From a virus, in the IMG/VR virus record IMGVR_UViG_3300048813_000122, positions 1 to 35,155 of that record: a stretch of DNA of 35,155 nt; one strand, 5' to 3'. The notes beneath the pieces were generated by a model. That model worked only from the letters and a program-made list of their open reading frames with translations. It had not been told where the DNA came from and made no database searches. Below, piece after piece: positions 19,401-34,890 of the stretch (position 1 is the first letter of the stretch; every line of letters starts with the position of its first letter). The position numbers and the translations under genes are program-made.

Positions 19401-20804
19401 CTAACTTGAGATGATCGGGGCGAAGCGCTTGTAGCGGCTCGCGTTGCCAACCAGCGAATCGGTGCGGAGCGCCCAGCCGAAGACGCCGTAGCTGGTCGCG
19501 GACACCTGATCCTGGGTGCGGTTGAGCGACTCACGCAGGATGATCTTCGCGTGGTCGACGTAGACGTCGATGCCGTTGTTGACGATGCGGAAGTCCCCGA
19601 CGCGGCCAGCGATACCGGCCTCGGTGAGGAACAGCGCCTGGTCAACCCAGAACTCGAAGAAGCCGTCCTGGCCCGTGAAGAGGGTGTACTGCATCTGCGT
19701 CGACGCGCTGTTCTCCAGTTCGCCTCCGAAGTAGTCCTGCGGCTGGTACGCGGCCGACGAGTTGACCACGGTCCCGAGCGTCGGGGCCTCGGTGTTCTCG
19801 TAGAAGATGGCGCCCTGCAGCTCGCCCACCGCAAACTCCCGGTACATGTAGTAGTCGGGCAGCGCGGTCAGCATGCGCTGGGTCTCGGGGTCGCCGAAGA
19901 TCTCTTCCTCGGCAACCGGCGAGAGGTGAGCGTGGTAACGCCCATCCGGGTGCTTCGGCACGTTCTGCGTGCGGAGCCCGGCGATGGCCTGCCGAATGCT
20001 GGCCAGGGTGAGCGTCGACGTGGTGGTGAGCGCGTCGATGGTCAACGCGCTGGGCTGCTGCGCGTAGTAGACCTGCGAAGCGTCGGCACTGATGACCGCG
20101 CCGCGGGTGCTTGCGGTGGCCGCCGTGCCCAGCGTCAACGTGCCCGGACCCGTGGTGTCGGGAACCCCGTTGATCAGGTAGTCGGCCGTGTAGCCGGTCA
20201 CCGTGGTCGTGGCGGGGGTCGATCCGTTGTAGACCTGGATCGTGAGCGGGTTGGTGCTCGACACCGGAGCGAAGAGGGTGTTGGCCCCCGACGTCTGGTT
20301 GCGGGCCGTGGTGAACCCGTTGAGCCGCTGCACGTGCAGCGAGGTGCTGGACGACGTCGAGGTCGTCGCCACCGTGTTGCCCGAGAGGGCCGCGTTGAAC
20401 ATGTAGTCTCGCGCGATCCGGTTGAGCGACTGGGCGGCGTGCAGACCGAGCTGGTGGCAGTTGCGGAGGAACAGATCCGCAGCGGCGAGCGCGCTCGACG
20501 GCATGTCGGTGTCCATCGTCGCCAAGGGGTACTTGGAGATGACGGTGCTCCACTGCTCGAACCCGTAGGTCGAGGGGAGCGGGTCCTGGCCCGGAGGCAG
20601 GGGCAGGAGGTTCGGCGTCAGCAAGCCCGCCGCGGTGAAGACCGGCGTATCACCGGCATTCCCAGGATACTTCTTGTCGATGGCCTCGCCCCGGTACAGC
20701 AAGAGCGGGAAGAGAGCGTCGTGGTACGCACGCTCCAGAAGACCTTCCTGAACGACGCCACGCACCTGCGGGGTCTGAATCGCTGCTGAGACGCTGATGG
20801 CCAC
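19401..20804 (-). CDS. Major capsid protein
   Basis: This 467-residue protein starts with GTG 20804 behind GGGAG. The order scaffold then capsid, and the sequence itself, identify it. Features are an N-terminal arm, EGLLERAYHDALFPLLLYRG near residue 20, DGRYHAHLSPVAEEEIFGDP near 290-310, then YREFAVGELQGAIFYENTEA, and a C-terminal strand region with GFFEFWVDQALFLTEAGIAG. The G-x-Y-x-A-x-x-S-P...G-E-x-x-G-x-x-F-x-E-N-T pattern resembles N4 gp56-type HK97-fold capsid proteins. Residues about 150-270 are a Thr/Ser-rich insertion, probably a surface domain. A terminator follows directly, as expected for the most abundant virion protein. Confidence 0.92.
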   Translation of the reverse strand: MAISVSAAIQTPQVRGVVQEGLLERAYHDALFPLLLYRGEAIDKKYPGNAGDTPVFTAAGLLTPNLLPLPPGQDPLPSTYGFEQWSTVISKYPLATMDTDMPSSALAAADLFLRNCHQLGLHAAQSLNRIARDYMFNAALSGNTVATTSTSSSTSLHVQRLNGFTTARNQTSGANTLFAPVSSTNPLTIQVYNGSTPATTTVTGYTADYLINGVPDTTGPGTLTLGTAATASTRGAVISADASQVYYAQQPSALTIDALTTTSTLTLASIRQAIAGLRTQNVPKHPDGRYHAHLSPVAEEEIFGDPETQRMLTALPDYYMYREFAVGELQGAIFYENTEAPTLGTVVNSSAAYQPQDYFGGELENSASTQMQYTLFTGQDGFFEFWVDQALFLTEAGIAGRVGDFRIVNNGIDVYVDHAKIILRESLNRTQDQVSATSYGVFGWALRTDSLVGNASRYKRFAPIISS

Positions 20805-22546: not shown

Positions 22547-22723
22547 TCAACCTGGAAGTTCGTCTGGCTTCCGCGTGGCGAACTCTTCTGCCTGTTTGAT
22601 CTCCCCTGCCTGCAGCGACAGTGTGATCTTGCCGAAGAAGCGCGTGCGGCGAGCCCACACCAGGTAGCGAATCCACCGCCGCAGTGCTTCCTCTTCCGCC
22701 TCTGTGATACCAGCAATCGCCAT
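22547..22723 (-). CDS. 58-aa protein resembling DUF2292/YezD-type small proteins
   Basis: ATG 22723 overlaps the TGA of the upstream gene by one base (TGATG), giving 58 residues. The N-terminal helix is ITEAEEEALRRWIRYLVWAR. The second half, FFGKITLSLQAGEIKQAEEF, matches the pattern aromatic-G-K-I-T-[LI]-x-x-x-x-G-x-I-x-x-x-E seen in YezD/DUF2292-like small proteins of phages and bacteria, whose function is unknown to me. It is the last gene before the terminator at 22420-22459. Confidence 0.55.
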   Translation of the reverse strand: MAIAGITEAEEEALRRWIRYLVWARRTRFFGKITLSLQAGEIKQAEEFATRKPDELPG

Positions 22724-23109
22724 CACGCGGTCCCGAGAAAAACGAAGACGTTGATCGTTTGCGCCGCTTGCCCGACCAAAGTGATGGCAGTGATCGGCTT
22801 CGAGAGACACGCCCAGGTGAATGCTCCGCCAGCGTCGATGGGGATGATTTGGCTGGCGCCGTCGACGGTGGTGATCTCGATGTCGATGACGCTCGCGTCG
22901 ACGACGATCTGCACGACCGTCGCCTGAAGGAGCCCGCCGAAGTTCACAACCTGCGGCGTGTTGGTGGTGAGCATGTACTGCTGCTGGCTCGTCTGCTGGA
23001 GCGTCTGCTGCACCACGTTCTCGAACGTGATGTCAGAACCTGCCTGTGGCGAGCCAGAAAAGGGCGTCACCGTCAGCGTGCTGACGAGCTGAAGTGAGCC
23101 GGTGGCCAC
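22723..23109 (-). CDS. Small beta-rich virion protein, paralogue of the gene at 17135-17527
   Basis: The 128-residue protein starts at GTG 23109. Blocks SLQLVSTLTVTPFSGSPQAG, NTPQVVNFGGLLQATVVQIV, IDIEITTVDGASQIIPIDAG and a final NVFVFLGT correspond in order and spacing to the protein encoded at 17135-17527. The most similar parts are the N-terminal S-L-x-L-V-x-T-L-T-x-x-P-x-x-G-S-P and the central I-D-[IL]-x-[IL]-T-x-x-D-G-[AT]-[AS]-Q-[IV]-I-P. A Gln-rich insert (about 33-46) is specific to this copy. Both are probably virion surface or neck proteins. Confidence 0.65.
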   Translation of the reverse strand: MATGSLQLVSTLTVTPFSGSPQAGSDITFENVVQQTLQQTSQQQYMLTTNTPQVVNFGGLLQATVVQIVVDASVIDIEITTVDGASQIIPIDAGGAFTWACLSKPITAITLVGQAAQTINVFVFLGTA

Positions 23110-24043: not shown

Positions 24044-24394
24044 CTACTTGTGCTCGTAGACCTTCTTGCCGCTCGGGCCGAGGTGGAAGATCCCACCACG
24101 GGTGCCAGTCTGCGTGGTAGCTCCAAACGACTTGCCGGACGTCGACCGCGTGGCGCCTGTTGCGAGGTCTGTCATCTGCGTCGTGTCAGGCCATGGACCA
24201 GGCTTGGTCACAGTCCCACTGTGCCCCGAGGCGTGGCCGCTGATCTTCGTGCAGCCAGGTGTCGAGCAGGCTTTCGGCATGTCGAGCATGGTCTGCATGT
24301 TCACCTGGCCAGCGCGCTCGAACCCTGGCAGGTGTCCGCCAGCCGTCCAGTTGGGTGGCGGTGGCTTGCCCTGGAAACCTCCATTGTGCGCCAT
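24044..24394 (-). CDS. Tag-bearing protein 1 (C-terminal GGxFHL...GKKVY motif), 116 aa
   Basis: ATG 24394 behind GAGGAGG gives 116 residues; a longer reading would lack a ribosome site. The N-terminus is Gly/Pro-rich. The middle has a possible zinc site: C43 and C48 followed by H54 and H58 in KACSTPGCTKISGHASGHSG. The chain ends GTRGGIFHLGPSGKKVYEHK (97-116). The same terminal pattern ends the two genes just upstream (24405 and 24722) and occurs near the N-terminus of the protein at 34348. I read the end as a shared tag for virion packaging or binding. The family is not recognised. Confidence 0.65.
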   Translation of the reverse strand: MAHNGGFQGKPPPPNWTAGGHLPGFERAGQVNMQTMLDMPKACSTPGCTKISGHASGHSGTVTKPGPWPDTTQMTDLATGATRSTSGKSFGATTQTGTRGGIFHLGPSGKKVYEHK

Positions 24395-24404
24395 GACGAC
24401 CTCC

Positions 24405-24719
24405 TCAAACGTTGTGTTTGTAGACCTTCTGGCCTGATGCACTCAGGTGAAACTGCCCACCACGCGGGCCAGATGTGAAGTCAACGCCGTGGTGCTGAGC
24501 ACGAAGTGCTTCAGTTCTAGCGCACAGCCCTTTCGTGGAAAGTCCCGCCATCGAAATAGCCTGCTGCATGTTGAGCGCTCGGTGATGGAGCACTGGATCG
24601 TTCTTGAGCGCGCCACCAATCATCGCGAGCATTGCTGGGGAGACTGGACTGACGTCGTTGGTCGGCCAGGTCTCTGGCGGGTCGACCAAGTCATAAAAAT
24701 CCTCGTCGTACAGGGCCAC
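24405..24719 (-). CDS. Tag-bearing protein 2, 104 aa
   Basis: GTG 24719 has GGAGG upstream. The first 66 residues are mostly helical with an acidic N-terminus (YDEDFYDLVDPPETWPTND), then a helix-rich part with PAMLAMIGGALKNDPVLHHR. Residues 67-101 are almost identical to residues 163-197 of the next gene upstream: 34 of 35 match, including GPRGGQFHLSASGQKVYK. The DNA behind these 35 residues differs at many positions, nearly all silent, so selection keeps the peptide. Function unknown; the tag suggests a common partner or location. Confidence 0.65.
   Translation of the reverse strand: MALYDEDFYDLVDPPETWPTNDVSPVSPAMLAMIGGALKNDPVLHHRALNMQQAISMAGLSTKGLCARTEALRAQHHGVDFTSGPRGGQFHLSASGQKVYKHNV
24417..24521 (-). 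repeat. Duplicated 35-residue C-terminal tag, copy 1
   Basis: Codes for residues 67-101 of the protein at 24405-24719. It matches copy 2 (24731-24835) at 34 of 35 residues, while the bases differ at many synonymous positions, including serine codons switched between TCN and AGC. Confidence 0.8.
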
Positions 24720-24721
24720 AG

Positions 24722-25321
24722 CTACCTCCGCTTGTAGACCTTCTGACCGCTCGCGCTCAGATGGAACTGGCCGCCGCGCGGCCCGCTCGTGAAGTCTACA
24801 CCGTGATGCTCGGCTCGGAGGGCTTCGGTGCGGGCGTTGCCTGATGTCATCGAGTCAGCAGGAATACCGCGTGCGGCCCCGTAACCGAGTGCTCGGCCGA
24901 CTTCGGTAAGCCTCTGCGCCTTCAACTCCGCAACCACCCGGTCACTCGGGTTCTTAGCCCGTTGCGCCATTTCGTGCTCGTGGTTGTCAGCCATGTGCGC
25001 GCCCAAGTTCATCGTGGGCTCATTGCACAGTGGGCACGATTTACCGAGCCCCAACGGGGTCATCCCAGAGAGAGCTGGAACTTGTGGGGTGCGGGCGAAC
25101 TTCTGCTCTCCGAGCTTCTTGTACAGGTCAGCATGCATCCCCATGCCCATCTTGCGGTACTCGGCGGCTTTCTGCTCGTAGCCCGCCTTCGTCGAGAACT
25201 GCTTCTCGCTGGCCATGCGCTCGTGCTGCTCAGCTTCTGCGTGGTGGCCCTGGCCGAGCTGATACTTGGCCTCGTCCTCGTGGTCCTGCGGGCTCCACTT
25301 TGTGTAGGGATCCTTGGCCAT
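24722..25321 (-). CDS. Tag-bearing protein 3 with C2H2-type zinc-finger-like site, 199 aa
   Basis: ATG 25321 starts a 199-residue protein. Residues 10-70 are helical and charged, with GHHAEAEQHERMASEKQFST. Residues 96-116 hold C96-P-L-C99, H109 and H114 (C-x2-C-x9-H-x4-H), a spacing near classical C2H2 zinc fingers, in CPLCNEPTMNLGAHMADNH. A basic linker follows, then the tag at 163-197 ending GPRGGQFHLSASGQKVYKRR. C2H2-like fingers are uncommon in phage proteins. The protein could bind DNA, RNA or a protein. It overlaps nothing; its stop is two bases before the next start. Function inferred only from motifs. Confidence 0.65.
   Translation of the reverse strand: MAKDPYTKWSPQDHEDEAKYQLGQGHHAEAEQHERMASEKQFSTKAGYEQKAAEYRKMGMGMHADLYKKLGEQKFARTPQVPALSGMTPLGLGKSCPLCNEPTMNLGAHMADNHEHEMAQRAKNPSDRVVAELKAQRLTEVGRALGYGAARGIPADSMTSGNARTEALRAEHHGVDFTSGPRGGQFHLSASGQKVYKRR
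24731..24835 (-). repeat. Duplicated 35-residue C-terminal tag, copy 2
   Basis: Codes for residues 163-197 of the protein at 24722-25321; see copy 1 at 24417-24521. Confidence 0.8.
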
Positions 25322-25324
25322 GGC

Positions 25325-25588
25325 TTACTTGCTCGGCCCGCCGAAGGGGTTGGACTTACCGTCGCCCGGCGTTGCGCCGTCCCCAGGCTTGCCCTTCTTC
25401 CGCTTCGCGAAAATGCCGTGCTTAGTGGGTGCGGCCTCGTGCAGGCCCGCGGCGATCGCCTTCTTGTGGTCGCCGTCGCCACCGTCAGCGTTGGCGGCGT
25501 CGAGGGCGGCGGAGATGTGGCCAACGGCGGCGTTTTTCTCAACCTTCGAGAAGGTCGGAAAGCCGGGAGACTTTTTCTTCTGGCTCAT
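25325..25588 (-). CDS. Small basic protein, 87 aa
   Basis: ATG 25588 overlaps the TGA of the acidic gene (ATGA). The 87 residues are Lys-rich at both ends (MSQKKKSPGFPTFSKVEKNA; GIFAKRKKGKPGDG), with a small Ala/Asp/Gly-rich helix in the middle (GHISAALDAANADGGDGDHK). Positive charge beside a hyperacidic partner made from the same message suggests an interaction between the two, which is inference. No known family recognised. Confidence 0.6.
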   Translation of the reverse strand: MSQKKKSPGFPTFSKVEKNAAVGHISAALDAANADGGDGDHKKAIAAGLHEAAPTKHGIFAKRKKGKPGDGATPGDGKSNPFGGPSK

Positions 25589-26199
25589 TCGTCGTCGTCC
25601 TTGTCGTCCTCGTCGTCATCCGAATCCTTGTCGTCTTCGTCATCTTCCTCGTCGTCGGAGTCCTTGTCTTCGTCCTCGTCGTCCCCCGTGTACCCCTCGT
25701 CATCATCCTCGTCGTCGTCATCCTTCTCGTCGTCGTCATCCTTCTCGTCGTCGGCGTCGAGTTCTGCGTCATCGTCGTCAGCGTCGTCAGCATCATCGTC
25801 GCTGCCGCCGTCCATGCCCTCGACGTCGGAAGCATCGAGGTCAGCCTTGATGCCGTGACCAGAAAGCGCGTCGGTCAGGTGCTCGACGGCCTCGACAAGC
25901 GCCTCGTGGTCCTTGGACTTGTGGGCGTCGGCGATGGCGTTGACGGCCTCCCCGACGTCGGGCCACTCCTGGCCCATCGCATCGAGGTCGAGCGGCTCGC
26001 CATCCGAGCCCTCGGCGGCGTCCATGATGTCGTCCATCCCGTTGGCGAGATCGTCGTCATCGTCACCCGCGTGGTCGGGGGGCGGCTTGTTGGCCTCCTC
26101 CATGGGGCGCAGCCTGGGAACACCGGACTTGCCTCCGCCACCGGCTGGGGTTGTCTTCCCGTTGCCAAAGGCGTTGCGTAGCAGGTTCTGGTCAGCCAT
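25585..26199 (-). CDS. Hyperacidic protein with long Asp/Glu C-terminus, 204 aa
   Basis: I start at ATG 26199; a TTG three codons earlier is weaker. Residues 1-35 are Gly/Pro/Lys-rich. A compact helical middle (about 60-125) contains ALVEAVEHLTDALSGHGIKA. From about residue 125 to the end almost every residue is Asp or Glu with a few Lys and Ser, ending in DDDEDDKDDDE. The codons are mostly GAC/GAT/GAG, a microsatellite-like tract liable to slippage. Poly-acid tails occur in DNA-mimic, histone-binding and phage internal proteins. It lies between coiled-coil genes and a basic protein. The serine-rich reading on the opposite strand is a shadow. Confidence 0.75.
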   Translation of the reverse strand: MADQNLLRNAFGNGKTTPAGGGGKSGVPRLRPMEEANKPPPDHAGDDDDDLANGMDDIMDAAEGSDGEPLDLDAMGQEWPDVGEAVNAIADAHKSKDHEALVEAVEHLTDALSGHGIKADLDASDVEGMDGGSDDDADDADDDDAELDADDEKDDDDEKDDDDEDDDEGYTGDDEDEDKDSDDEEDDEDDKDSDDDEDDKDDDE

Positions 26200-26244
26200 G
26201 TGCCCCAAAGTACGCTCGGGGCGGCTGGGTGTCCAGAGTTGCGC

Positions 26245-26975: not shown

Positions 26976-27932
26976 TTAGCCCTCGAACGGCACGCGATCG
27001 CCGTCGCGGAAAACCCACCCCGGGATTCCCCAGTCGGGACGCCAACTCACCAGACATTCGCGCCCGTTCGGACGACAGGGAGTTTCTGTCCACGACAGGC
27101 CAGCCAGCGAAGGGGGCACGTCAAAGCGGCCCTTGGCGTCGGGGAAGGGTGCCGTGTCGGGCATGGTGAAGGGCTCACCTGGAGCTGCCACCTGCCCGTG
27201 CATGGCGATGCTGTCTACTGCCACGCGGTCGTCCAGCGGGGTTCCATCTGGCCCACACAGCTCCTGCCACATAAGCATGAGGTCTGGGATCTCTTCGCGC
27301 GCTTCAAGTGCGCTATCCACGGTCGAGGCACTCGCAGCGTATGACAACTCGGTGCGCGCGATGCGCTCAGCCTGCCACCACTCGTTGTCAGCGACGTCCT
27401 GGATTCTGTCGATTGCCTGGTGCGGCGTCTCGTCGGAGATCAGCGACACCGCCAGCTCGTCTTCCATCTTCGTGGCCAACGTGTCGCCGTACCTGTGGAG
27501 ACTGCTCTGGTGCATCCGAATCAGGCTGGTCTCCCGTTTGCCAACTACGCCCGCGAAGATGGCGGCCTCTTCGGTGGGCAACGAGATCTCCGCGCCCGTA
27601 AAGTGCTTCTCCAGTCGGGTGACATCACGAGAGAACCCGCGCACAGCCTCGACACGGGTGCCCACCGACGCCTGAGTGAGCCCTTGCCCGAGCTTGGCGG
27701 CGATGATCTTCTGCCCGTCCCTCACCTGCGCGAGCACGATGCGGTGATGGTGAGCGGTGAAAGTGTCACCCTTCCCCGAGCGCACCGAGCTTCGCAGCTT
27801 GCGGGCCAGCTCGTCTTGCGCCTGGTCGTAGACCCGCTTGAGCCGCCCCACCCCGCCCTGCTCGACGACCCGCAGCAAGCGAGCGCGGTGCTCGTTCACC
27901 GCCTCCACGAACGGGTCAATCGACTTGGCCAT
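26976..27932 (-). CDS. Minor head protein (Mu gpF / SPP1 gp7-like)
   Basis: ATG 27932 overlaps the methyltransferase TGA by one base (TGATG), giving 318 residues. The N-terminal two thirds are helical. The conserved C-terminal region shows IARTELSYAASASTVDSALE (191-210), MWQELCGPDG (221-230), then D-R-x-x-x-D-S-I-A-M-H-G at 235-246 and GEPFTMP. The A-R-T-E...R...H...G...P-G-E-P-F pattern marks the phage head morphogenesis family (Mu gpF, SPP1 gp7). These proteins enter the head near the portal and help assembly or DNA delivery. A portal gene would be expected upstream but is not in the window. Confidence 0.8.
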   Translation of the reverse strand: MAKSIDPFVEAVNEHRARLLRVVEQGGVGRLKRVYDQAQDELARKLRSSVRSGKGDTFTAHHHRIVLAQVRDGQKIIAAKLGQGLTQASVGTRVEAVRGFSRDVTRLEKHFTGAEISLPTEEAAIFAGVVGKRETSLIRMHQSSLHRYGDTLATKMEDELAVSLISDETPHQAIDRIQDVADNEWWQAERIARTELSYAASASTVDSALEAREEIPDLMLMWQELCGPDGTPLDDRVAVDSIAMHGQVAAPGEPFTMPDTAPFPDAKGRFDVPPSLAGLSWTETPCRPNGRECLVSWRPDWGIPGWVFRDGDRVPFEG

Positions 27933-29476
27933 CAGTGATGGTGTGACTGCAGGATGGGGGCCACCCCACCGTCGTCGAGGTGCATCGCCCTGACCTGGGA
28001 CTCGATGTACCCCTGCTCTTCCCGCGTGATGCCATACTTCGCGTATAGATCCTCGTCGGTCCAGGTACGGTTCCAGGTCTGCATCGGCACCCAGGCGTAG
28101 GTGGAGTGCGTCGCGTGTTGAGTGATCTTTCGCAGAGAGACGAGGAAGCGAAAGAACCGCGTCGCGTAGTAGGACTGAAGACTCTTGGCAGCGGCGCGCG
28201 AGCCTACGTAAAAGAAGAGGAACGACTGGGTGCAGACTGACGGCGCCGGAGCGATTAGCGGCTTCCCCACTATTTGATGTGGCAGTGAGTCCCCGCCATT
28301 GAACGCCTCCGGGACAAGGAGCTTCCAAGTATCTATCAGGTGATCGCTCTTGGTCACCGCTTTGCGGGCGATGTGGCCAACCCCACGCTTCATCTTCCGG
28401 ATGTAATAGAGCGGCAAGTCCCCAGGACGCTCTTGTTCGTGGAAGCCATCGAAGTTCGAGGTCCAACCGAATTCCTTGTCCCGCGCCAGGATCGTGTTGA
28501 TGGGCGACTCGCCTCGTCCCAGGACTTTGTGCAAGATCAACACCGCGCGCGCATCCCGGACAAAAACGTCGTATTCACCCAGCTGCCGCGGAATCGGCCC
28601 AATGACCTCCCCTCCACGGAAGGTCGTCACCTTGCAATCGCCTTCGTAGGCCGCGTCCCAGAGGAAGTAACACACCCCTGCTTTGACTTCGACACCTGGA
28701 AACACGTCGTCTGCTGCCGGGTAGTCGACAAGCTCTCGAATGCGGCGATCTCCAAGCATTGTTTGTCGGAACTCGCTGAGGCCGAGGCCCGACGCCATCC
28801 ACCGTGACGGAATAACCATTACGAGATATCGCGGTTGGATCATCTTCGCCTGCTCGATGAAGTGCTGATAGATCGGCACGTCACGGGTTCCTCCGTCGGA
28901 GCCGAGTTGATACGGAGGATTTCCAATTATGACGTCGAACTGCATATCGCTCCCGACCGCTGATTGGGTGAGGATGTCGAAGCGGAAGTCGCGCCGCTGG
29001 AACCTGCCCTTGCCCACGTAGCCCCACTCGGCAAATGTGATTGGCTGGCCCTCGCGGGTGCGCATCGTCAGCGTGTCGCCGTGAACGAGGTTCTGTGACA
29101 GCACGTAGGACGCGGCGCGGTGGAGGTCGTCCGACAGGTCCAGGTTCAAATATTCGGCCAGGATCTCCAGCACGCTCGCGCGGCACTCGGCGATGTTGTC
29201 CGCGAGCAGCTCGATGCCATAGATGCACATCAGCGCAAGCAGCGCATAATGCCGCCGCTCGAAGTCGGACTTGCCGTACTTGAGTTCCACAGCGCCGAGT
29301 TTCCGCCGCAGGATTTGGACGAGGAAGTTGCCGCTTCCGCAAGCGGGCTCCAGGAAACGCGAGTCGATGCGCTCCGTCTCGTCCTTCACCAGATTGAGCA
29401 TGGCCTCGACGATCCAGGCTGGAGTGAATACCTCCCCGTGGTCGGCGACGCGTTGTTTGGACCTGATGGCGTTCAC
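27932..29476 (-). CDS. N6-adenine DNA methyltransferase (Eco57I-like)
   Basis: I start at GTG 29476, which overlaps the TGA of the upstream 47-residue gene (GTGA); a TTG nine codons earlier would overlap that gene more deeply. The 514-residue protein has D-H-G-E-V-F-T-P near the N-terminus, motif I FLEPACGSGNF (41-51) for S-adenosylmethionine, and motif IV NPPY (186-189) for adenine flipping and catalysis. A C-terminal half typical of target-recognition domains follows (for example LIDTWKLLVPEAFNGGDSLP). It would methylate adenine in a specific sequence, most likely protecting phage DNA from host restriction. No nuclease domain is fused. Its place inside a head operon is unusual. Confidence 0.9.
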   Translation of the reverse strand: MNAIRSKQRVADHGEVFTPAWIVEAMLNLVKDETERIDSRFLEPACGSGNFLVQILRRKLGAVELKYGKSDFERRHYALLALMCIYGIELLADNIAECRASVLEILAEYLNLDLSDDLHRAASYVLSQNLVHGDTLTMRTREGQPITFAEWGYVGKGRFQRRDFRFDILTQSAVGSDMQFDVIIGNPPYQLGSDGGTRDVPIYQHFIEQAKMIQPRYLVMVIPSRWMASGLGLSEFRQTMLGDRRIRELVDYPAADDVFPGVEVKAGVCYFLWDAAYEGDCKVTTFRGGEVIGPIPRQLGEYDVFVRDARAVLILHKVLGRGESPINTILARDKEFGWTSNFDGFHEQERPGDLPLYYIRKMKRGVGHIARKAVTKSDHLIDTWKLLVPEAFNGGDSLPHQIVGKPLIAPAPSVCTQSFLFFYVGSRAAAKSLQSYYATRFFRFLVSLRKITQHATHSTYAWVPMQTWNRTWTDEDLYAKYGITREEQGYIESQVRAMHLDDGGVAPILQSHHH

Positions 29477-29616
29477 CGGCCAGCGCCTGCACAGGTCTTG
29501 CAAACGTTGTACGTCTCGCCATCACGCCGCACCCCAGTGCCGTCGCACTTCTGGCAGTTCGGCAGCGCGCGGGGGCGGAAGACCTTGTTGCACTTCGGCG
29601 AAATCGCAGCGTACAT
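29473..29616 (-). CDS. 47-aa DnaJ-type zinc-ribbon protein
   Basis: A short gene from ATG 29616 to TGA 29473. The 47 residues end NCQKCDGTGVRRDGETYNVC and then KTCAGAGR. The two C-x2-C-x-G-x-G knuckles are the zinc module found in DnaJ. It starts two bases after the stop of the upstream gene and overlaps the methyltransferase start by GTGA. This tight coupling supports a real gene and suggests co-expression with the methyltransferase. A similar C-x2-C-K-G-T-G knuckle occurs in the protein at 34887-35135. Confidence 0.7.
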   Translation of the reverse strand: MYAAISPKCNKVFRPRALPNCQKCDGTGVRRDGETYNVCKTCAGAGR

Positions 29617-31732: not shown

Positions 31733-32566
31733 TCAACTGTGAGCTGCTGTCTCAGGAAGTGCAGCAGAGCGCGCCTCAGCTTCGGCAGCCCACTGCGGCT
31801 TTACTGACTCAGCCATGGACGGATCGTTGTAACCCCACACGTCCTCTTTTTTGATCTTGATACTGCCACCACCGAGCAACGTCACCTCGTGCTCGTGCAT
31901 CGCATCCAGTGACGGCACCGCGCGCCACGACATGACGATTGAACTACGCGACACCCTGGTACGCACGATGATGTGTGGCTTGGTCTTCGCCTCGTCGTTG
32001 GGCCCGCCAGTGCCGTGGCCCTCGCAATACTGCTTGGCGGTGTGGATCTTCTCGGTGAAGCTCACCAGGTCGTGCAGCCCCAGTTCGGCCTCGCCGTTCT
32101 TCGCGATGGCATCGAGCACCTGCTGCGCCTGACCGTTGTAGACCCCTCGATACACCTCGACCTCGTCGCTCTGGTAGACGGCTTGGGAAACAGAAGCCAT
32201 GGCCTCCAGTGTGGGCTCATGTTGGCCCGTGACCTCATTGTGGGCAACTTTGGTCATTTCGGTGAGCGTCTCAGTGCTGCTGCTGCTCACAACAGTCTCG
32301 CCCTCGTCAGTCTTCACCCGGGTCTCGGTGTGCTGCCCAGCGTGCGTGTAGGACTCGGCCCAATCGACGGCCTTCTTGCCGTCACCGCCAACGACCTTCA
32401 CCGTCCGCATGAACGCACTGTGTTGCTGCTCGACCTGCGTCACGCCGAGCTTGTGCATCTCGTCGATGTTCTTGCGCAACTGCTCAGTGCGCACCCAGTA
32501 GGTCTCGTCGAAGGTTGTGCCTCCGCGGGTGACGCTCTTGACGACCGCTGTCAGTCCCTCAGCCAT
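31733..32566 (-). CDS. ADP-ribosyltransferase (R-S-E class), copy 1
   Basis: The 277-residue protein has the three catalytic elements of arginine-type ADP-ribosyltransferases in order: VEVYRGV with R140, VSFTEK with S169-F-T171, and MHEHEVTLLGG with E225-H-E227 (E-x-E). Such enzymes move ADP-ribose from NAD to a protein. Phage T4 Alt and ModA/ModB are examples that alter host RNA polymerase and other proteins. The N-terminal 75 residues, with FDETYWVRTE and GGDGKKAVDWAES, are conserved in the neighbouring copy and may target the enzyme. The ATG overlaps the end of copy 2 by eight bases. No secretion signal; delivery with DNA or expression in the host are both possible. Confidence 0.82.
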   Translation of the reverse strand: MAEGLTAVVKSVTRGGTTFDETYWVRTEQLRKNIDEMHKLGVTQVEQQHSAFMRTVKVVGGDGKKAVDWAESYTHAGQHTETRVKTDEGETVVSSSSTETLTEMTKVAHNEVTGQHEPTLEAMASVSQAVYQSDEVEVYRGVYNGQAQQVLDAIAKNGEAELGLHDLVSFTEKIHTAKQYCEGHGTGGPNDEAKTKPHIIVRTRVSRSSIVMSWRAVPSLDAMHEHEVTLLGGGSIKIKKEDVWGYNDPSMAESVKPQWAAEAEARSAALPETAAHS

Positions 32567-33452
32567 TGGGGTCTACCTTGCCAGAGACGTTCACCCCACC
32601 CGCGTTCATGGGTAGCTTGTCCGCAGCTTTCTCTGCGGCTTCTGCCCAGTCAGGCTTGTTGGTTTTCTCGCCTTTGGACGGCACGAAATCGTAGGCCCAG
32701 GCGTCGTCCTTCTTGATTGTGACGCTTCCGCCAGTGAGTACGGTGACCTCTTTCTCCGACATGAAGTCGAGTGACGGGACTGCCCGCCAAGACATCGCGA
32801 TGGACTCGCGAGGCACCTGCACGCGAATCACCAGGTGCGGCTTGGACGAATCGTAGTTCTCCCCGCTGCCGACACCTTCAGCGAACCCCTCGGCAGTCCA
32901 GATTTTCTCACTGAAGCTCGTCAACTCGCGCAAACTCACCTCAGCGTTGCCGTGCTCTCTGATCTGGTCGATCACCGCCTGAGCCTTCTTCCCGTAGAGA
33001 CCACGGTAGACCTCCACCGTGGGCTCCTTGTACATGGCCTGCGAGAGCGTCGCGATAGCTGAGAGTGTCGCGTCGGGCTTGCCCGCAGCCGTGTCGCGAG
33101 CGGCCTGGCGAATGTCCTGCAGACCTTTTGCGCTTCCCTGAGCGACCACTTCCTGCTTCTCGGGGTGGTCTGGGTCAATCTCTACGCTGCGAGCGTGCGA
33201 CGCAGACGCTGCATTCTGCCCCCACGCAAACGACTCAGCCCAGTCAGCAGCCTTTCGGCCGTCACCACCCAGCTCTTTGACGGCCTCAGAGAAGACTGGA
33301 TACTGCTTGTTCGAGAGCGCGCCAACCTGGTGCATCTTGTCGACGTTGGCGCGCACCGCCTCCGTCTTGACCCAGTAGGTCTCGTCGAACACCTGCGCGC
33401 CGCGGTGAACGGTCTTGACCAGTGGGGTGAGGGCGCCAGTGATGGTGCTCAT
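32559..33452 (-). CDS. ADP-ribosyltransferase (R-S-E class), copy 2
   Basis: This 297-residue paralogue of the downstream gene is similar along its whole length. Catalytic elements are VEVYRGLYG with R150, LTSFSEK with S179-F-S181, and FMSEKEVTVLTGG with E233-K-E235. Shared N-terminal parts are FDETYWVKTE, DKMHQVG and GGDGRKAADWAES; shared later parts are SWRAVPSLD and the Gly-Gly-Ser-[IV]-x-I-K-K segment. The middle part before the catalytic domain (about 78-125) differs strongly from copy 1 and is richer in Ala, Ser and His, which may change target choice. ATG 33452 overlaps the HAD gene stop (ATGA). Confidence 0.82.
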   Translation of the reverse strand: MSTITGALTPLVKTVHRGAQVFDETYWVKTEAVRANVDKMHQVGALSNKQYPVFSEAVKELGGDGRKAADWAESFAWGQNAASASHARSVEIDPDHPEKQEVVAQGSAKGLQDIRQAARDTAAGKPDATLSAIATLSQAMYKEPTVEVYRGLYGKKAQAVIDQIREHGNAEVSLRELTSFSEKIWTAEGFAEGVGSGENYDSSKPHLVIRVQVPRESIAMSWRAVPSLDFMSEKEVTVLTGGSVTIKKDDAWAYDFVPSKGEKTNKPDWAEAAEKAADKLPMNAGGVNVSGKVDPNG

Positions 33453-34347: not shown

Positions 34348-34890
34348 TTAGCGGGGAATCTTCGAGACCTTCAGGGCAGGTCTCGGCCTATCCCAAGCCT
34401 TCGACACCAAGTTGGCCTTCTGGTAGCCGGTTTTGACCTCATGGCCCTCGTTCAGGTCCCAAATGGCGATCTGTTGGTGCGAGCGGCCGAGGTCGAGCGC
34501 CTTCTCCCTGGTGTCCTCAACTTGCGAGACATCCAGATAGACGTTGCCGTCCTTCTCGTTGTACCACATGCCCAACTTGGCCCCGGGCTTGGTGAGCGCT
34601 TCCTTGGCGCCAGGGCCATTGCGGTACTCGTTCACCGCCGCGGCGTCGCACAGGGCCTTGGCGACGGGTTTCTCCAACCCCTTGTTCACCGACACGACGT
34701 AGCCCTTGGTCACGAGCTTGCCCGTCGAGGGCTCAATGGTCGCGCCGCCCTGCTTGATGCCCTGTTGGATGCTCTCGTTCATGGCTTCCGCTGGTTTGAC
34801 GGTCACGTAGTACTTCTTGCCGCCCTTGCTGATCGTGAAGTGCCCACCTTTGGGACCGATCTGCTGAATCTGCTGCGAGAGCTTGCTCAC
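34348..34890 (-). CDS. Protein with N-terminal tag motif and unknown C-terminal domain, 180 aa
   Basis: GTG 34890 overlaps the TGA of the upstream gene (GTGA); longer readings are shadow. Residues 12-28 read GPKGGHFTISKGGKKYY, a close relative of the terminal tag of the proteins at 24044-25321 but placed at the N-terminus. The rest has a conserved-looking fold with KGYVVSVNKGLEKPVAKAL, then LGMWYNEKDGNVYLDVSQVE, then QIAIWDLNEG. I have a vague memory of phage and plasmid proteins with a similar Y-L-D-V-S...Q-x-A-I-W/F-D-L end, but I cannot name a family. No membrane or enzyme motif is clear. Confidence 0.65.
   Translation of the reverse strand: MSKLSQQIQQIGPKGGHFTISKGGKKYYVTVKPAEAMNESIQQGIKQGGATIEPSTGKLVTKGYVVSVNKGLEKPVAKALCDAAAVNEYRNGPGAKEALTKPGAKLGMWYNEKDGNVYLDVSQVEDTREKALDLGRSHQQIAIWDLNEGHEVKTGYQKANLVSKAWDRPRPALKVSKIPR

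Follow-up and report, generated by a model that had tools for sequence, protein, structure and literature searches.

Two phage systems are known in which a short terminal peptide, common to injected proteins, suffices for packaging: the capsid targeting sequence of T4, found on Alt and IPI-III, and the N-terminal signal of DarB in phage P1 (PMC9026906, PMC9024508). Both signals are located at the N-terminus, and that of T4, which is about 10 residues long, is removed by the prohead protease. Polyvalent proteins, in which several disparate effector domains occur in one polypeptide, form another point of reference: ParB-like, zincin-like and InPase domains are found in them near head genes, and phage proteins with domains of this type have been argued to be packaged and injected (Iyer et al., 2017; PMC5512222). 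Then there is a Pfam domain, PF08789 (PBCV_basic_adap, 'PBCV-specific basic adaptor'), which is fused to unrelated enzymes, including the kinases A278L and A282L of chlorovirus PBCV-1; these are annotated with the domain, number about 400-530 copies in each virion and are found with the viral DNA (PMC3281028). We found no tested function for PF08789 in the literature, and the term 'PBCV' does not occur in the text of Iyer et al. (2017).

The locus to be compared with these systems lies in a stretch of viral DNA of 35,155 nucleotides (IMG/VR record IMGVR_UViG_3300048813_000122; hereafter the window), in which the pattern G-x-[RK]-G-G-x-F-x5-G-x-K-x-Y occurs exactly four times, always on the - strand; a profile of diverse tags likewise gave four matches in the window and none besides (E 3e-16 to 4e-14). 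An initial annotation had placed the motif at the C-termini of three adjacent genes (24044, 24405 and 24722) and near the N-terminus of a fourth (34348), an arrangement that was borne out. Tagged gene 1 (24722-25321, - strand) encodes 199 aa, with a His/Ala-rich, helical-looking body and its 17-residue C-terminal core at 24734-24784; tagged gene 2 (24405-24719, - strand; 104 aa) has its C-terminal core at 24420-24470 (GPRGGQFHLSASGQKVY), and tagged gene 3 (24044-24394, - strand; about 116 aa from the ATG at 24394) has its own at 24056-24106 (GTRGGIFHLGPSGKKVY). The start of gene 3 is probably this ATG, which has an AGGAGG ribosome site, rather than the GTG at 24442 where the reading frame opens; a start at the GTG would mean overlap with the next gene. 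The fourth tagged gene (34348-34890, - strand; about 180 aa) carries its core at 34807-34857, N-terminally (GPKGGHFTISKGGKKYY). Its probable start codon is a GTG near 34890, which overlaps the preceding reading frame (GTGA); the tag would then be close to residues 11-28.

Likeness among these four proteins is confined to an extended block around the tag, so the earlier description of the parts ahead of the tags as unrelated holds, and no Pfam domain was found in any of them. They are small (about 104-199 aa) and, unlike polyvalent proteins, none has several disparate effector domains: here the activities are spread across separate, mostly small proteins that share the tag. The fourth protein's body shares homology with part of large proteins annotated as internal virion proteins in the cyanophages Syn5 (gp45) and P60, a likeness that is suggestive only, because small free-standing actinophage proteins are homologous to it as well. 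A search of IMG/VR for close relatives of the 24722 protein gave none, and a stringent pattern written for the FHL variant of the tag that the window itself carries had zero matches; when the bare tag was compared with GenBank phages by tblastn, weak matches alone were obtained (e.g. to proteins of Acinetobacter phage SH3).

The tagged genes lie on both sides of a gene for a MuF-like head morphogenesis protein (26976-27934, - strand; about 318 aa if translated from the ATG near 27934 that lies within a reading frame open from 28466). The trio is between this gene and that for the major capsid protein (19401-20804, - strand; phrog_1357), a relative of gp7 of Streptomyces phage Kromp, and the fourth tagged gene is beyond MuF. 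Between MuF and the trio are two small untagged reading frames on the same strand (25325-26208, comprising 25325-25588 and 25585-26208), and between the trio and the capsid gene a 128-aa protein (22723-23109, - strand), with 34% identity to its counterpart in a syntenic relative, L084, serves as a synteny marker. The window also matches a tape measure and a baseplate hub, and no portal gene was identified in it. Three neighbouring genes may be mentioned in passing. The product of 25585-26208 is extremely acidic and Asp-rich, and L084 has an acidic protein in the same slot. A gene for an Eco57I-type adenine methylase (27932-29503) is situated inside the head module, its end meeting the start of the MuF gene. 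An untagged candidate for a DRAT-like ADP-ribosyltransferase (32559-33452, - strand; Pfam DRAT, E 9e-4) has homologues within the head cassettes of L084, L322 and L337, that of L084 standing among the tagged genes of its locus.

According to the initial annotation the tag had no named function that its author knew of. It does at least have a name, since PF08789 describes the same motif (G-x-[RK]-G-G-x-[YF]...G-x-K-x-Y). Taken singly, the tags of the window are to be regarded as relatives of PF08789 and not as formal members, because they score below its curated cut-off of 20.4 bits (13.7 bits for the tag of 34348, no hit for the other three); the tag of the syntenic relative L084 (= L348) exceeds the cut-off at 25.2 bits. 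More widely, PF08789 was matched by 12 of 18 diverse tags (E <= 1) and by 54 of 147 tagged proteins (E <= 0.01). The tag is likewise a small basic module on varied proteins: its net charge (0 to +8) is nearly always positive, and clustering by sequence separates the 32 tagged bodies, those of the window among them, into 29 groups. It departs from PF08789 as described in two respects, the carriers here being phages and bacteria in spite of a name that specifies PBCV, and copies often being clustered in one head operon. The C-terminal ends of phrog_2459 and NF007464 (PRK10040.1-4) also match the tags (16/18 and 18/18 members, respectively); these are whole-protein families of unknown function that end in the module, and the window proteins are not members of either. 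From an alignment of 87 tags, AlphaFold predicted a beta-hairpin, with a pLDDT of about 80-85 over the tag and, for the whole 43-residue piece, a mean pLDDT of 68 and a pTM of 0.39. A sequence search of the PDB with the tag gave one chance match, to a surface-layer repeat protein, and searches with the hairpin model by Foldseek and VIA-align gave no fold match and no pointer to a ligand.

The comparison was extended to 80 contigs that encode a relative of the window's capsid protein, which were searched in six frames with the tag profile (E < 0.2). This revealed 29 tags in 16 loci, with up to three per locus. All 29 are on the capsid sense strand (P about 2e-9), and 28 lie in the 45% of the sequence that is upstream of the capsid gene (P about 4e-9); near-duplicate loci were counted separately in both tests, and the counts are slightly inflated because a few loci are such near duplicates (L309/L310, L318/L319). 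Most of the tags (23) are within five residues of the C-terminus, four are within 35 residues of it and two are N-terminal, so that they do not conform to the short N-terminal peptide of T4 and P1; unlike those signals, the tag is mostly C-terminal, comprises some 20 residues with a predicted fold and occurs also outside phages, and the analogy is one of working only. Tags were found 0 to 5.1 kb from MuF in 14 of the 47 relatives with a MuF match, and the gap between tag gene and MuF, where MuF was found, has a median of 1.6 kb and a maximum of 5.9 kb (that of the window's fourth tag). Of 38 relatives in which the sequence extends 8 kb or more upstream of the capsid gene, 11 have a detectable tag, which marks the tags as optional. 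In L084, whose capsid protein is 46% identical to that of the window and whose other genes are syntenic with it, the tag slot is retained, and the tagged bodies resemble those of the window in the tag only.

A second, unrelated portal lineage, defined by phrog_64, shows a comparable arrangement: N-terminally tagged proteins are encoded directly behind the portal gene in 4/4 informative contigs (only two of them new, as the other two had been starting points of the search, and one of the four having a tag that is a weak, degenerate copy), and up to three tagged genes with differing bodies are in tandem. A profile search of the kind proposed in the initial annotation has thus placed the tag on many unrelated bodies, clustered around MuF and in the portal-capsid interval, in two lineages.

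What the tag is attached to is diverse. The tagged bodies include a topoisomerase IB (PF01028, 5e-16), ParB-like proteins, a GNAT-like protein (a weak match), zincin-like proteins with HEMAH, HEMMH or HEYGH motifs, as read from the sequence, a polyvalent-looking InPase protein (in L025) and small His/Ala-rich, helical-looking proteins.

The tag is also widespread beyond these loci. A degenerate DNA pattern yielded at least 121 copies each in viral and genome collections; among the matches listed, the copy ends within 10 residues of the C-terminus in 111/121 viral and 116/121 genomic cases. Positions that the pattern leaves free are conserved as well, position 9 for instance being mostly I, L, Y or V. 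The bacterial matches, to judge from the record titles of those listed, span many phyla, and most of the listed bacterial copies form the C-terminus of exported proteins: by a crude rule, a signal-peptide-like start was present in 83 of 104 listed carriers; among about 590 untagged neighbours, which had additionally been passed through a membrane-segment filter, 92 had one. Since these carriers are exported, the ligand of the tag in bacteria would not be a phage head. In 24 bacterial genomes, all selected for containing one or more tags, there were 29 tags, or about one per genome. Partner domains on tagged proteins comprise SH3, SNase, Excalibur, HNH and NUC1. Enrichment of nucleases on tagged proteins was considered as evidence and rejected, because untagged secreted neighbours hold nucleases equally often, so that fusion to a nuclease does not by itself indicate DNA binding. 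Proximity is a separate matter: across the 24 genomes, three tags have an SNase gene no more than 1.2 kb away, compared with 0.017 expected, a whole-genome test that was prompted by an earlier result on neighbours and concerns three cases (in the genomes of L137, L149 and L166, i.e. G040, G046 and G049).

The reading that we prefer, to which we would assign a probability of roughly 0.55, is that the tag is a portable basic hairpin of the PF08789 type, carried by fast-changing proteins of the head operon and loading them into heads, perhaps via DNA. A small basic beta-hairpin, attached C- or N-terminally to accessory, effector-like proteins, would bind a single ligand, the same for all of them, within the head as it assembles; the tagged proteins, loaded in this way into the virion, would then enter the host together with the genome. 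That the common ligand may be DNA itself is put forward with less confidence; it is suggested by the charge of the tag, by the association of the chlorovirus kinases with virion DNA (PMC3281028) and by the tags near SNase genes in bacteria. If loading into heads does take place, the tag would be a new, mostly C-terminal address for it; a profile of 20 residues would list candidate head-packed proteins, most of them otherwise unannotated, of many uncultured phages; a named Pfam domain would have acquired a testable role; and cargo loading in phages would be linked with that in giant viruses. The initial annotation had proposed a sorting or docking signal, for instance for packaging internal proteins in the head, and the part of this proposal that stands is that unrelated proteins encoded near the portal/gpF region share a terminal signal of a portable kind. 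Head packaging appears, from gene context, to be the best-supported use of the tag; it cannot be the whole function of a module that is not specific to phages and is present on exported bacterial proteins. A broader idea, which is distinctly more tentative, is that hairpins of the PF08789 type serve as a cargo address across domains: a terminal tag with a fold, common to tailed phages, chloroviruses and exported bacterial proteins, would bind its carrier, whatever that protein may be, to DNA or some other polyanion, the carriers in viruses being packed and delivered with the genome.

Other readings of the same evidence may be weighed against loading by a portable hairpin. The basic composition of the tag, its DNA-acting partners (topoisomerase IB and ParB-like proteins), its SNase neighbours in bacteria and the occurrence of the chlorovirus kinases with DNA might all be expected of a general nucleic-acid-binding mini-domain, whose carriers would act on the DNA of the infected cell (in the nucleoid, in replication or in packaging) and would not be virion cargo. 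This alone would leave unexplained why, in two lineages, the tagged genes are so strictly located in the portal-capsid interval and flanking MuF, and many of the bodies (zincin-like, GNAT-like and small helical ones) do not obviously act on DNA; we therefore think it unlikely. We are similarly doubtful that the tag acts as a protein-protein signal resembling that of T4 and anchors the proteins bearing it to one particular head component (the portal, MuF, the scaffold or the inside of the capsid). Such docking would accord with cassettes that encode several unrelated tagged proteins and are situated in a head operon, around MuF, but the tag accompanies two or more portal or capsid lineages that are unrelated, and the module is found also on exported bacterial proteins and in chloroviruses (PMC3281028), which are without such a partner. 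The view that the repeats are products of recent gene duplication or DNA mosaicism, the tag having no function of its own, might draw on the two most similar tags of the window (24731-24835 in gene 1 and 24417-24521 in gene 2), which are identical in 34 of 35 residues, with a single E/Q change, but is highly improbable given that the same blocks show 29 base differences over 105 positions, affecting 24 of 35 codons and including two serine codon-class switches (AGC/TCT and AGC/TCA), and that the motif is kept, nearly always terminally, on unrelated bodies and across many phyla. Duplication without selection is ruled out by this codon divergence, and the contention that the tag peptide is under selection and was not freshly copied, which had been based on silent differences between these two tags, is upheld by the same figures.

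Finally, we draw attention to a second short motif, K-K-L-[KA]-A-F-A, which is located near the N-terminus of other proteins encoded in the same head-gene slot (in L303, L309, L313, L320, L335, L368, L372 and L376; e.g. L309:5792-6553 and L320:1649-5178). It may be another terminal signal, and in several L320 proteins it directly precedes the tag.
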